IMG/VR virus record: IMGVR_UViG_3300007734_000759 | Location: 95,436-159,435 of that record | DNA from: a virus | Direction: 5' to 3' (one strand) | Length of the DNA: 64,000 nt | Shown here: positions 4,180 through 50,844 of the stretch, piece after piece | How positions within the stretch are numbered: position 1 is the first letter of the stretch | Layout of the letters: every line of letters starts with the position of its first letter | Translations under genes and position numbers: made by a program | The notes under the pieces: model-generated | What the model saw: only the letters and a program-made list of their open reading frames with translations | What the model was told of the DNA's origin: nothing | The model's database searches: none

Positions 4180-4821
4180 ATGGAGTTATTGAAAAAGCCT
4201 AATGGCAACATTGTACGAACTGAGGAGGAAAAAGCTCAAATGATCGAACAAGCAGCTGTGTATTATGGTCAGTTTTTGAACGCTTTAGGGTTTGACTGGG
4301 CTGCTGATGCACACTCAGCAGATACCCCACGTCGAGTGGCTAAAGCATGGGTACATGATTTAATTAAAGGATCAATTAATGCAGAGCCGAAAATTACTGC
4401 TTTTCCTAATGATGAAGGGTACACGGGTATTATAGCACAAACAAGGATACCGGTGGTGAGTATGTGCGCACACCACAACTTGCAATTCGTTGGTATCTGC
4501 CATGCGGCCTACATACCAGGAAAGGAAAACACCGACATGGTTATTGGCCTAAGCAAGCTGAACCGCATTGTAGATTTCTATGCTCGCAGACCTCAGATTC
4601 AGGAAAGTTTGACCAAACAGATCCATGATCATATTGATCGTTTATGTGTAGGTAATCGTGGAGTTGCTGTGGTAATCGAATCACAACACAATTGTGTACG
4701 TTGTCGACAACTTAACCACGAAAGTGTTATGAAAACCTCTCAACTATCTGGATACTTCTTCACGAATGAAATAGGCACTCGCACTGAGTTGTTTTCTCTA
4801 ATCGAGAACTCCAGACTTTAA
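4180..4821 (+). CDS. folE: GTP cyclohydrolase I
   Basis: 213 residues, full length for FolE. The enzyme opens GTP to 7,8-dihydroneopterin triphosphate, the first step toward folates and deazapurines. Diagnostic parts are present: SADTPRRVAKAW, the zinc/active-site C-A-H-H-N-L-Q-F segment near residue 95, GLSKLNRIVDFYARRPQIQE, and the C-V-R-C-R segment near residue 171 supplying another metal Cys. Immediately follows the kinase gene. With QueD and QueE it completes GTP to 7-carboxy-7-deazaguanine. Confidence 0.92.
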   Translation: MELLKKPNGNIVRTEEEKAQMIEQAAVYYGQFLNALGFDWAADAHSADTPRRVAKAWVHDLIKGSINAEPKITAFPNDEGYTGIIAQTRIPVVSMCAHHNLQFVGICHAAYIPGKENTDMVIGLSKLNRIVDFYARRPQIQESLTKQIHDHIDRLCVGNRGVAVVIESQHNCVRCRQLNHESVMKTSQLSGYFFTNEIGTRTELFSLIENSRL

Positions 4822-4839
4822 TCTTTCAGGAATGTCGGC

Positions 4840-4846
4840 TATTTAT
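4840..4846 (+). promoter_or_regulatory. Late-type promoter motif TATTTAT
   Basis: GGCTATTTATTACAAA occurs 19 bases before the homing endonuclease ATG at 4865. Homing endonuclease genes elsewhere in this window (44231, 50227) also follow this motif. Confidence 0.45.
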
Positions 4847-4864
4847 TACAAATAAACTAATACA

Positions 4865-5614
4865 ATGGCTGACATTTCATCTATTAAAGTTAACAAAGGA
4901 GATGTGTTTGGACACTGGACTGTTGTAAGCATCTACACAGCCCAGAAGGTTGAGTGTGTATGTAGATGTGGGTATGTTAAAGAACAAAGACAAACAGACC
5001 TACTCAGAGGGGCAACTAAACAATGTCCAAGTTGCTATGCTAAAAAACCTAAGGCAGGAATTGAAACAGGAAAGAGGTTTGGTAAGTGGACGGTTGTCGA
5101 CGTTGAGGACTATACCTACCTGTATAGGAGGAATGGAAAGGTACTAGAGAGGCAGTATAGATGTATTTGCGATTGTGGAACAGAAAAGTACATCAGAACA
5201 TCACACATAACCAGAGGGCTATCAAAACAATGTGGCACGTGCCGTATGATGGATTACTCGGTAAGTACCGTAGGTTGTATACCAACCACAGATATTAAGA
5301 GGTATAAGGCAGGAGCAGCCAAGCGAAATAAGGAATGGAATATCACTTCCGAGTACTTATACGAACTATACGAGAAGCAAAATAGGCTTTGTGCTCTGAC
5401 AGGTATACCCATACAGTTTTCTCAAAAAGGTATAGGGACTCCAGGAGCTAAGGATGTTAGCACAGCTTCTCTTGATCGAATAGATTCGACGAAAGGGTAC
5501 ACACCTGATAACATACAGTGGATACATAAGGATGTAAATAAAATGAAAATGGATTTGGAAGAACTAAATTTTCTTCGTATAGTTAAACAAATATACGAAT
5601 ACAAACAACTATAA
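4865..5614 (+). CDS. HNH homing endonuclease with two Cys-rich repeats
   Basis: 249 residues. Two related zinc-binding repeats (about 1-65 and 60-137) share the pattern FGxWTVV...C-x-C-x-CG...QC-x-x-C. A C-terminal nuclease-like part follows: RLCALTGIPI, then SLDRIDSTKGYTPDNIQWIHKDVNKMK, typical of phage HNH-type proteins where D-R-I-D and N-I-Q replace the canonical core. It lies alone between folE and the DpdA-like gene, the expected placement of a free-standing mobile endonuclease. It likely cuts a neighbouring locus in endonuclease-free relatives. Confidence 0.75.
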   Translation: MADISSIKVNKGDVFGHWTVVSIYTAQKVECVCRCGYVKEQRQTDLLRGATKQCPSCYAKKPKAGIETGKRFGKWTVVDVEDYTYLYRRNGKVLERQYRCICDCGTEKYIRTSHITRGLSKQCGTCRMMDYSVSTVGCIPTTDIKRYKAGAAKRNKEWNITSEYLYELYEKQNRLCALTGIPIQFSQKGIGTPGAKDVSTASLDRIDSTKGYTPDNIQWIHKDVNKMKMDLEELNFLRIVKQIYEYKQL

Positions 5615-43390: not shown

Positions 43391-43452
43391 CTTAACAAAT
43401 CTTAAAATTTTAAATTGAGTTTGGCTTTTGTCAAACTCTTTTCGTATCTTTA
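43391..43452 (+). promoter_or_regulatory. Type-1 promoter overlapping a terminator
   Basis: CTTAACAAATCTTAAAA boxes, TTTG at 43420-43423, TATCTTTA at 43445-43452. ATG 43457 follows after four bases. Confidence 0.8.
43417..43444 (+). terminator. Terminator hairpin inside the promoter
   Basis: GAGTTTG/CAAACTC (43417-43423, 43432-43438) then TTTTC. Fourth case of a hairpin arm that also holds the -33 box. Confidence 0.7.
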
Positions 43453-43456
43453 TGAT

Positions 43457-44116
43457 ATGAAAATTGAAATAGGTTACGGAATAGCAAGAAGGTTATGGTT
43501 TACAAGTGACACTCACTTTGAACACAGTAACATCTGTAGAGCTACTACTAAGTGGGAAGGTGCAGATAATGTTACAAGAGATTTCAAATCTCTAGACCAC
43601 ATGAACGATACTTTGGTCAATAACATTAACGAAGTAGTAGGTGAGGATGATATTCTTATCCACTTAGGTGATTGGTCATTTGGAGGATTTGAGAACATTA
43701 AATTGTTTAGAAACAGGATCAACTGTAAGAATGTTCACTTGGTGTTTGGTAATCACGATCACCACATCCGTAGGGATAAGGGAGGAGTACAATCATTATT
43801 TTCTTCTACTCAGGATTATTTGATGGTGGATCTACGAGTACATAAACCAGGTAAGGTTGTTGATAGACATACTTTAATTTGTATGCACTATCCGCTGATT
43901 TCTTGGGATGGAATGAATGATGGTACTGTACATCTGTTCGGCCATGTGCATCTACCTAAGGAGCTAAGACTTTTAGAGGGTAAAGCAATTGATGTAGGAG
44001 TTGATGGAAACAAATACTATCCCATTGAGGTAACAGAGGTACTGAACATCGTAAAGAACCAGCCGATAAAAAGATCAACAATACCCAGAGACCACCACGA
44101 AAAAAGGTTAGTCTAA
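43457..44116 (+). CDS. Calcineurin-like metallophosphoesterase
   Basis: 219 residues. All family motifs are present in order: WFTSDTHFEHSN (D-x-H), DILIHLGDWSFGG (G-D), HLVFGNHDHH (G-N-H-D), ICMHYPLISW and LFGHVHLP (G-H-x-H). It hydrolyses a phosphoester, perhaps a cyclic nucleotide or nucleic acid end. The start in the -7 shadow is preferred because the first motif begins at about residue 12. Confidence 0.9.
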   Translation: MKIEIGYGIARRLWFTSDTHFEHSNICRATTKWEGADNVTRDFKSLDHMNDTLVNNINEVVGEDDILIHLGDWSFGGFENIKLFRNRINCKNVHLVFGNHDHHIRRDKGGVQSLFSSTQDYLMVDLRVHKPGKVVDRHTLICMHYPLISWDGMNDGTVHLFGHVHLPKELRLLEGKAIDVGVDGNKYYPIEVTEVLNIVKNQPIKRSTIPRDHHEKRLV

Positions 44117-44129
44117 CACATTCCTAGAC

Positions 44130-44136
44130 TATTTAT
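44130..44136 (+). promoter_or_regulatory. Late-type promoter motif TATTTAT
   Basis: GACTATTTATACGAG immediately precedes the hairpin at 44135 and the terminator at 44178-44230, so the implied transcript is short. Confidence 0.5.
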
Positions 44137-44230
44137 ACGAGTAGGGTCGCAGCTACTTGTATTGAATAAAAACTTAAAAACCTTAGATGAGTAGGAGACT
44201 GCGACCTCCGAAAGTCTAAGGTTTCTTTTT
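44135..44230 (+). ncRNA. Structured RNA with predicted kissing loops
   Basis: Hairpin 1 is a 10-bp stem (44135-44144 with 44153-44162, one G-U) with loop GGTCGCAG. Hairpin 2 is a 10-bp stem AAACCTTAGA/TCTAAGGTTT (44178-44187, 44215-44224) followed by CTTTTT. Inside it GGAG/CTCC (44194-44197, 44206-44209) presents loop ACTGCGAC. The two loops are complementary over seven bases (GTCGCAG/CTGCGAC). The order of the pairing parts makes a kissing complex or an alternative-fold switch. It ends one base before the HNH gene's ATG. Confidence 0.65.
44178..44230 (+). terminator. Long-loop terminator at the end of the structured RNA
   Basis: The 10-bp stem with a 27-base loop then CTTTTT. The loop contains the complement of the upstream hairpin loop, so termination may depend on RNA folding. 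Confidence 0.65.
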
Positions 44231-44890
44231 ATGGATTATCAAAGAATATACAACCAGTTAATTGAAAGAGCTCGGAGTGAAAATAGAGTCAAAGGTGGAG
44301 GAAGCTACTACGAAGCTCACCATATAGTTCCTAAATGTATGGGGGGAGGAGGTAAAGGTAGCGAGTGGAAAACTCATCCAAATATCATCCTATTAACTGC
44401 AAGGGAACATTTCTTAGCTCATCAACTACTTTGCAACCTTTACCCTACTGAATTAAAACTTTCCCATGCCTTGTGGTTTTTCTTAAATGCTAAAAGAAGA
44501 AACGGAAACACAATAACGAGGGTAACATCTAGACAGTACAAAGAAGCTAGGGAGCAACACGCCTTAGCAGCATCCAAACAGCGAAAAGGTAAACCCCGAT
44601 CTCAGCAGACAAGAGACTTACTCTCGAAAGTGAACACAGGTAAAAAGTTATCTGATGAAGTTAGACAGAAAATATCAAGATCCAATAAGAGCAGTGTTGT
44701 AAAGCAGAGAGCAACTTTTCTAATGAAGAAACCAATCTCCCAATACACAGTAGATGGCGTCTGGATGAGAGATTGGGATAGTGTGCAGGATGTGAAGAGA
44801 ACCTTAGGAATAACAAGCGTGTTGGATAATCTTAAAGGTAGGCAGAAGACAGCCGGAGGTTATGTTTGGAAATATCTTAACAAATCTTAA
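44231..44890 (+). CDS. HNH homing endonuclease with NUMOD repeats
   Basis: 219 residues. HNH core: YYEAHHIVPKCMGGGG ... NIILLTAREHFLAHQLL (H-H, N, H). Then a NUMOD3-like KGKPRSQQTRDLLSKVNTGKKLSDEVRQKISRSNKS and a NUMOD1-like end, PISQYTVDGVWMRDWDSVQDVKRTLGI ... GYVWKYL, that bind DNA. ATG follows the terminator T-run with no ribosome-binding site, so expression is probably restricted. Confidence 0.88.
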   Translation: MDYQRIYNQLIERARSENRVKGGGSYYEAHHIVPKCMGGGGKGSEWKTHPNIILLTAREHFLAHQLLCNLYPTELKLSHALWFFLNAKRRNGNTITRVTSRQYKEAREQHALAASKQRKGKPRSQQTRDLLSKVNTGKKLSDEVRQKISRSNKSSVVKQRATFLMKKPISQYTVDGVWMRDWDSVQDVKRTLGITSVLDNLKGRQKTAGGYVWKYLNKS

Positions 44891-50188: not shown

Positions 50189-50196
50189 TAGTCTGA

Positions 50197-50203
50197 TATT
50201 TAT
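50197..50203 (+). promoter_or_regulatory. Late-type promoter motif TATTTAT
   Basis: CTGATATTTATAAGTGACC, 24-30 bases before ATG 50227 of the GIY-YIG endonuclease. Confidence 0.45.
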
Positions 50204-50226
50204 AAGTGACCAAACAAATAAATACT

Positions 50227-50844
50227 ATGATAAATATCAGCATAATCTACAAGATTACAAACCCCTCAGGGAAAGTCTACATAGGACAAACTATAAACCT
50301 CAAGGCTAGAAAATGGGCCTACTCGAGAGGAGGATCTACTCAACAGGCCAAACTTAGCAGATCGATTCAGAAACATGGATGGGATAGTCATACTTTTGAT
50401 ATTATCTTCCAAGGTATTTGCAGTGCGGATTGTTTGAATAAGTTGGAAAGGTACTACATAGCTCACTACAACAGCATGAAGCAAGGTCTCAACTGCACAG
50501 AAGGAGGTGGTGGAGCAAGAGGTCGTACTATGAGCGCTGAATCCTTGGCCCAAATGTCACAGCGACTGAAGGGGAGAGTCTTTACAGAAGAGTGGAAAAG
50601 AAAGATATCAGAAGCTTGTAAGGGTAGACCTGCTCACAACAAAGGAAAACAAAAAGCTCCGGAACTAGTGGAACTTCATAAAAAACCAATCATTCAATAC
50701 AGCAAGCAGGGAGACTTTATACGAGAGTGGTCTTGTGCTATGGAAGCTTCCAAAGCTTTAGCAATATCTAATAGCTGCATAGGCAGGTGTTGCACAGGAG
50801 ATTTGAAATCCTATTCTGGACATGTCTGGCGTCATAAATCTTAA
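50227..50844 (+). CDS. GIY-YIG homing endonuclease
   Basis: 205 residues from ATG 50227; GTG 50206 would add seven. IIYKITNPSGKVYIGQTINLKAR is the GIY-YIG core, ERYYIAHYNSMKQGLNCTEGGGG carries the catalytic Glu region, and RTMSAESLAQMSQRLKGRVFTEEWKRKISEACKG is a NUMOD3-type DNA-binding repeat, with a NUMOD1-like C-terminus (QYSKQGDFIREWSCAMEASKAL). Free-standing. Confidence 0.9.
   Translation: MINISIIYKITNPSGKVYIGQTINLKARKWAYSRGGSTQQAKLSRSIQKHGWDSHTFDIIFQGICSADCLNKLERYYIAHYNSMKQGLNCTEGGGGARGRTMSAESLAQMSQRLKGRVFTEEWKRKISEACKGRPAHNKGKQKAPELVELHKKPIIQYSKQGDFIREWSCAMEASKALAISNSCIGRCCTGDLKSYSGHVWRHKS

Follow-up and report, generated by a model that had tools for sequence, protein, structure and literature searches.

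A conserved kissing-hairpin RNA before homing endonuclease and replication genes in uncultured phages

Two hairpins in the gap before an HNH gene

Do two hairpins with complementary loops, lying directly upstream of a phage homing endonuclease gene, form a functional RNA, and if so, what does it do to the gene that follows? The question arises from a 64,000-nucleotide stretch of DNA (the window) that is part of a 159-kb virus record (G000). The hairpins occupy the gap between a calcineurin-like phosphoesterase gene (43415 to 44116; phrog_547, E = 1.1e-41) and a gene coding for a 219-residue HNH homing endonuclease with a NUMOD3 motif (44231 to 44890; phrog_655, E = 4.7e-45), and all of these features are on the plus strand. 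In the nearest cultured relative, another gene comes after the phosphoesterase gene, and neither the HNH gene nor the kissing-hairpin RNA is present there, so that the RNA and the HNH gene look like a single inserted cassette with the phosphoesterase gene at its left edge. The family-A DNA polymerase of the record is 57% identical to that of Flavobacterium phage immuto; because of this relationship and of the promoter boxes described below, the phages carrying the element are apparently uncultured phages of Bacteroidetes.

Hairpin 1 (44141 to 44156) has a core stem of GUAG (44141 to 44144) and CUAC (44153 to 44156) closing an 8-nt loop (44145 to 44152), within which lies the first kissing sequence, GUCGCAG (44146 to 44152). 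An initial annotation had described a 10-bp hairpin at 44135 to 44162; this is present, and the minimum-energy fold lengthens it to 44130 to 44168 with one bulge, but the comparative data place selection for pairing in the inner 4 bp (44141 to 44144 with 44153 to 44156), or at most five. An AU-rich linker (44157 to 44177), whose sequence is not conserved and whose length varies among relatives, leads to hairpin 2 (44178 to 44224), which has the form of an intrinsic terminator. Its position and its inner stem, GGAG (44194 to 44197) with CUCC (44206 to 44209), are as originally described, but the outer stem (44178 to 44188 with 44214 to 44224) has 11 bp rather than 10, and it encloses 25 nt, not the 27-base terminator loop that had been claimed. 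The two stems are separated by an internal loop of GAGUA (44189 to 44193) and GAAA (44210 to 44213). The apical loop, ACTGCGAC, carries the second kissing sequence, CUGCGAC (44199 to 44205), which is complementary to GUCGCAG over the seven bases that had been noted, and the U-tract TTTCTTTTT (44222 to 44230) at the 3' end is a putative termination site. The two-hairpin stretch folds at -33.8 kcal/mol (z = -4.2), with none of 200 shuffled sequences folding as well, and hairpin 2 on its own folds at about -17 kcal/mol.

Relatives and covariation

Relatives were sought in IMG/VR, and at least 86 distinct members were gathered. Homologues of the HNH gene identified by protein search lacked the kissing-hairpin RNA. 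In many of these homologues the start codon is instead covered by a single hairpin, whose 5' arm contains TATTTATA, a putative late-type promoter box; at loci L013 to L022 a single hairpin with the late box in its 5' arm lies over or beside the ATG, about 50 nt before the HNH start, and at L011 and L092 the late box lies within a terminator hairpin that immediately precedes the ATG. When U-tracts close upstream of the conserved start ATGGATTATCAA were searched for, two loci (L084 and L130) were found with the same two-hairpin layout, at which the loops differ yet remain complementary. The exact pattern GGTCGCAG...CTGCGACC was set aside, as its matches in IMG/VR were mostly unrelated, with one layout-like match, L213. 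This locus and L456, in the 30-kb phage G017, are two further kissing-terminator-like layouts of other sequence, found once each.

More general patterns recovered the element repeatedly. A pattern describing hairpin 1 only matched 23 contigs, and a second hairpin with a matching loop was present in all 23. Patterns for the hairpin 2 core and for hairpin 2 with the pairing loop left free matched 77 and 114 stretches, respectively, some of them chance matches in coding sequence. Among 79 distinct free-loop matches, 72 have an exact 7-base complement upstream and two match at six of the seven bases; the remaining five look like chance matches. Because the 86-member collection demanded loop pairing, 72/79 is the unbiased figure, and with exact complements found in 0.04 to 0.12% of shuffled upstream sequences, the suggestion that the structure is unlikely to be fortuitous is well founded.

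Covariation was assessed in an alignment (A1) of 55 nonredundant sequences, in which the structure, including the pseudoknot, pairs in 93.3% of cells. Two-sided compensatory changes are seen at 25 of 26 pairs: at 5/5 pairs tested in stem 1 (the 4-bp core and one outer pair), at 11/11 in the outer stem of hairpin 2, at 2/3 in its inner stem, where the third pair is invariant, and at 7/7 loop-loop pairs. The loop-loop pairs are formed in 100% of cells. For these pairs, as for those of the inner stem, full pairing partly follows from how the members were collected, whereas the count of compensatory changes does not. The structure scores 0.694 for covariation, compared with 0.199 for shuffled alignments and at most 0.138 for slid ones. 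A lack of covariation among relatives had been named at the outset as a result that would refute the structure; its presence at every loop-loop pair strongly supports the core proposal of two hairpins joined through their loops, as predicted for a kissing-loop RNA. A second alignment (A2), built from 44 sequences collected by hairpin 2 patterns and excluding the window, gave a covariance model that recovers the window locus (65.9 bits, E = 8.7e-12) as well as all 23 of the hairpin 1-pattern loci (E = 8e-14 or better).

The element also appears to be new, as had been suspected when it could not be assigned to a recognized class. Against Rfam 15, only two tRNAs in the window reach the gathering threshold, with the best subthreshold matches at E = 4.5 to 7.5, and no family matches any of 20 member loci. 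A search of the open literature found no description of a kissing-hairpin RNA of this kind. One exact scan of GTDB bacterial genomes gave two matches, both lacking a matching loop, and thus no true member; none was found among 396 genomes from the phylum in a covariance search with strict filters and few candidates scored per genome; and blastn against cultured phages gave chance matches or none. On comparative grounds we regard the base pairing of the two-hairpin RNA as near certain, and conclude that this is a real, conserved RNA absent from Rfam and from the searchable literature.

Promoter boxes, family anatomy, and downstream genes

The members share a fixed order of parts: a promoter box, a 4-bp hairpin 1 with an 8-nt loop, an AU-rich linker, a terminator hairpin, a U-tract, and a start codon. 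In the window, the box is TATTTATA (44130 to 44137, plus strand), and the initial annotation was correct that a promoter-like motif overlaps the first base pairs of the longer hairpin, although the overlapped outer pairs match no better than a control. The same motif occurs 34 times on the gene strand and nine times on the other strand of the 159-kb record; it is the reverse complement of the T4 sequence TATAAATA, and appears to serve this group of phages as their late promoter. In members of this late type, TATTTATA lies exactly 3 nt before the 4-bp stem 1 in 35/35 cases. Other members have a box of the Bacteroidetes type, TAnnTTT(G/A), which in 36 of 39 is 4 to 5 nt before stem 1, and in 12 members the boxes are variant or not clear. 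Elsewhere in the window (32846 to 63797), an 80-nt block that ends in TATCTTTAAGTATTGAA recurs in at least 15 to 17 diverged copies, apparently as Bacteroidetes-type promoters preceding small genes.

These spacings bear on where the RNA begins. The Flavobacterium psychrophilum sigma-A TAnnTTTG box is at -12 to -5 (PMC9723704), which predicts that the RNA of TAnnTTT(G/A)-type members begins with the first base of hairpin 1 or the base preceding it. In T4, late boxes begin at -13 (PMC2988020), and this geometry would place the start of late-type members at the third base of stem 1, within the hairpin (at about 44143 in the window); for late-type members, T4 geometry and a start at the stem base are thus in conflict.

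Hairpin 2 is built throughout from an outer stem, a RAGUA/GAAA internal loop, a 3-bp inner stem (4 bp in the window), and the apical loop. The internal loop is near-invariant, a property partly imposed by the search patterns, although AGUA and (G/A)AAA are equally present in the 23 loci from the hairpin 1-only pattern; we presume that it resembles the sarcin-ricin, or bulged-G, motif. The U-tract is present in nearly all members, with T in at least about 90% of rows at A1 columns 96 to 100, and in 77 of 86 members the start codon lies 15 to 27 nt after GAAA, so that there is no room for a second promoter. There are 27 loop pairing codes in all. The 102-kb phage contig G002 has four copies of the element (L272, L383, L451, and L455), and some other contigs also have several. 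The idea of one distinct loop code per phage, as for specificity in trans, was rejected, since GTCGCGG is shared by two copies in G005 (L442 and L450).

The genes that follow the element are varied. GIY-YIG and HNH endonucleases account for 35 members in one cluster, NUMOD4-HNH endonucleases for 14, and a replication-region family for a further 14; KilA-N, DUF6291, and helix-turn-helix genes are single cases. Weak matches in two of the member phages revealed other internal-loop types with the same layout. Types B and C both keep the succession of promoter, hairpin, kissing, and terminator, with different internal loops. Type B (L380 and L459 to L463) has UGAC/UGAU with GUG/CAC and at least three covarying loop codes (GTGGAAG, GTAGTGG, and GTGGTAG), and type C (L454, L464, L466 to L468, and L471) is a single lineage. 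The kissing pair is thus the constant feature, and the internal loop is interchangeable.

A leader RNA and its possible modes of action

We propose that the element is a phage-specific, cis-acting leader, a promoter-coupled attenuator that throttles the downstream gene, and we put the probability of this at roughly 0.6; put simply, the RNA is probably a built-in brake on the next gene. To the pairing, conservation, position, and gene context that are observed, the proposal adds a candidate promoter and a predicted start site, with predicted termination and attenuation. Because the distance between promoter box and stem is fixed, transcription would start at or near the base of hairpin 1 to give a leader RNA of about 85 to 90 nt. 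As the terminator hairpin emerges, its apical loop would form 7 bp with the loop of hairpin 1, so that the two hairpins would form a rod-like kissing complex in which the RAGUA/GAAA internal loop is structured; on reaching the U-tract, RNA polymerase would then mostly halt before the next gene. That gene would be expressed by read-through alone, such that homing endonucleases, and elsewhere replication genes, are kept low or conditional. We favor an attenuator acting in cis because the start codon is so near the terminator that the gene can be expressed only through it, and a terminator hairpin and U-tract directly before a gene, here with predicted termination, are what attenuators and terminator riboswitches have.

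The leader nonetheless lacks the usual two-state anatomy of such systems, because there is no conserved antiterminator: comparison of the linker with the two terminator arms gave mean z values of 0.06 and 0.01, with p < 0.05 in 2 to 4% of members. A folding switch, raised in the initial annotation, fares poorly for the same reason, and also because the sole alternative helix in the window, in which CUAC joins GUAG and runs on into the loop pairing, is formed in 78% of cells and shows almost no two-sided change. An RNA of the window starting at 44143 is predicted to pair 44144 to 44161 with 44187 to 44207, leaving the terminator open, but the helix beyond the seven loop bases shows no covariation, and a terminator/antiterminator switch was rejected as a general mechanism. 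We still favor control of read-through into the gene that follows. Termination alone does not explain why the kissing is conserved, because hairpin 2, at about -17 kcal/mol, might terminate without it; perhaps the kissing speeds folding of a terminator with a large loop, or it may build a shape that is read by polymerase or by a protein.

Other interpretations account for some of these features. Promoter, compact fold, and terminator form a single unit, and together with the lack of an antiterminator this would suit a stand-alone small RNA of about 85 to 90 nt, stabilized by kissing and acting in trans, with the downstream gene tapped by leaky read-through; we consider this unlikely, as in 77/86 members the start codon follows the terminator by no more than about 30 nt, which is not expected of an independent gene, and 27 variable loop codes imply no shared, fixed target. 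Chance hairpins, or an ordinary terminator without special function, are hardly credible: hairpin 2 does have intrinsic-terminator form, but covariation at 7/7 loop pairs, the 72/79 exact complements, and recovery of the window by the model refute this explanation.

The overlap of TATTTATA with hairpin 1 in the window, where T4 geometry puts +1 at about 44143, suggests a timing mechanism like that of T4 I-TevI but operating through termination. RNA reading through from upstream would contain the whole of hairpin 1, and so would kiss and terminate, whereas late transcripts would begin inside hairpin 1 without its 5' strand and read through. The late-start RNA is indeed predicted to pair its freed loop with the terminator loop and to leave the terminator stem open, and in other HNH relatives a late box is found within a hairpin at the start codon. 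However, conservation does not extend to the long alternative helix, there is no selection for pairing beyond the 4-bp core of hairpin 1, and RNAs of members with flavobacterial promoters would start at the stem base and include all of hairpin 1, all of which makes this quite unlikely. The near-invariance of the internal loop, partly search-imposed but with AGUA and (G/A)AAA equally present in the 23 hairpin 1-only loci, could instead reflect recognition of the kissing fold and RAGUA/GAAA by RNA polymerase or a protein, as in HK022 put RNAs or an operator; this is very doubtful, since the sister types differ in the internal loop and the structure ends in a terminator, unlike antitermination sites.

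Returning to the cis-acting attenuator, a phage leader with a terminator is a known kind of element, and the principle of control stands a fair chance of being new. Tentatively, and at less than even odds, it may represent a new phage control device in which a first structure set by the promoter pairs forward with the terminator loop and determines whether polymerase stops. In such a device the loop codes and the internal-loop modules, at least three in number, would be interchangeable, and it would have spread together with homing endonucleases and been put to use by replication operons as well. In any case, this is a structured RNA family that had not been described, very strongly supported by comparison among relatives and linked to the promoters and terminators of uncultured phages. 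The family suggests that phages can regulate a terminator through that terminator's loop, with no antiterminator involved, and that the portable control elements of homing endonucleases come in more than one type. The compact layout (promoter, about 90 nt, gene) makes the question of regulation directly testable, and the kissing loops could serve as a designable part.

Comparison with known systems

The homing endonucleases I-TevI, I-TevII, I-TevIII, and SegB of T4-like phages, and mobE of Aeh1, have late-promoter hairpins with the ribosome-binding site sequestered in a single hairpin (PMC2988022). The element described here likewise places an RNA hairpin at a putative late promoter immediately before a homing endonuclease gene of a phage, where it would limit expression, but it has two kissing hairpins and a terminator, it also precedes nonhoming genes, and its structure does not take in the start codon: in the window, the outer stem ends at 44224 and the AUG is at 44231. 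We note that the window contains a classical I-TevI-like layout at 50190 to 50245, where TATTTATA (50197 to 50204) lies in a hairpin and the start codon of a GIY-YIG/NUMOD3 homing endonuclease gene (likely ATG 50227) is covered by the 3' arm of that hairpin. A long hairpin at 4820 to 4885 has CTATTTATT in its 5' arm and, in its 3' arm, the start codon (4865) of a 249-residue gene product that is endonuclease-like by eye and has no Pfam match. Like attenuators and terminator riboswitches, the element is a structured leader ending in an intrinsic terminator just before a gene, but it has no conserved antiterminator, and the terminator's own loop is engaged in a conserved 7-bp kissing pair. Complementary hairpin loops also pair in ColE1 RNA I/RNA II and in the purine riboswitch, whereas here the pairing is in cis and joins a 5'-terminal hairpin to the loop of a terminator. 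In the HK022 put antitermination RNAs, which act through RNA polymerase to suppress terminators farther along, two hairpins likewise lie close to the 5' end of a phage transcript; here, the second hairpin is itself a terminator.
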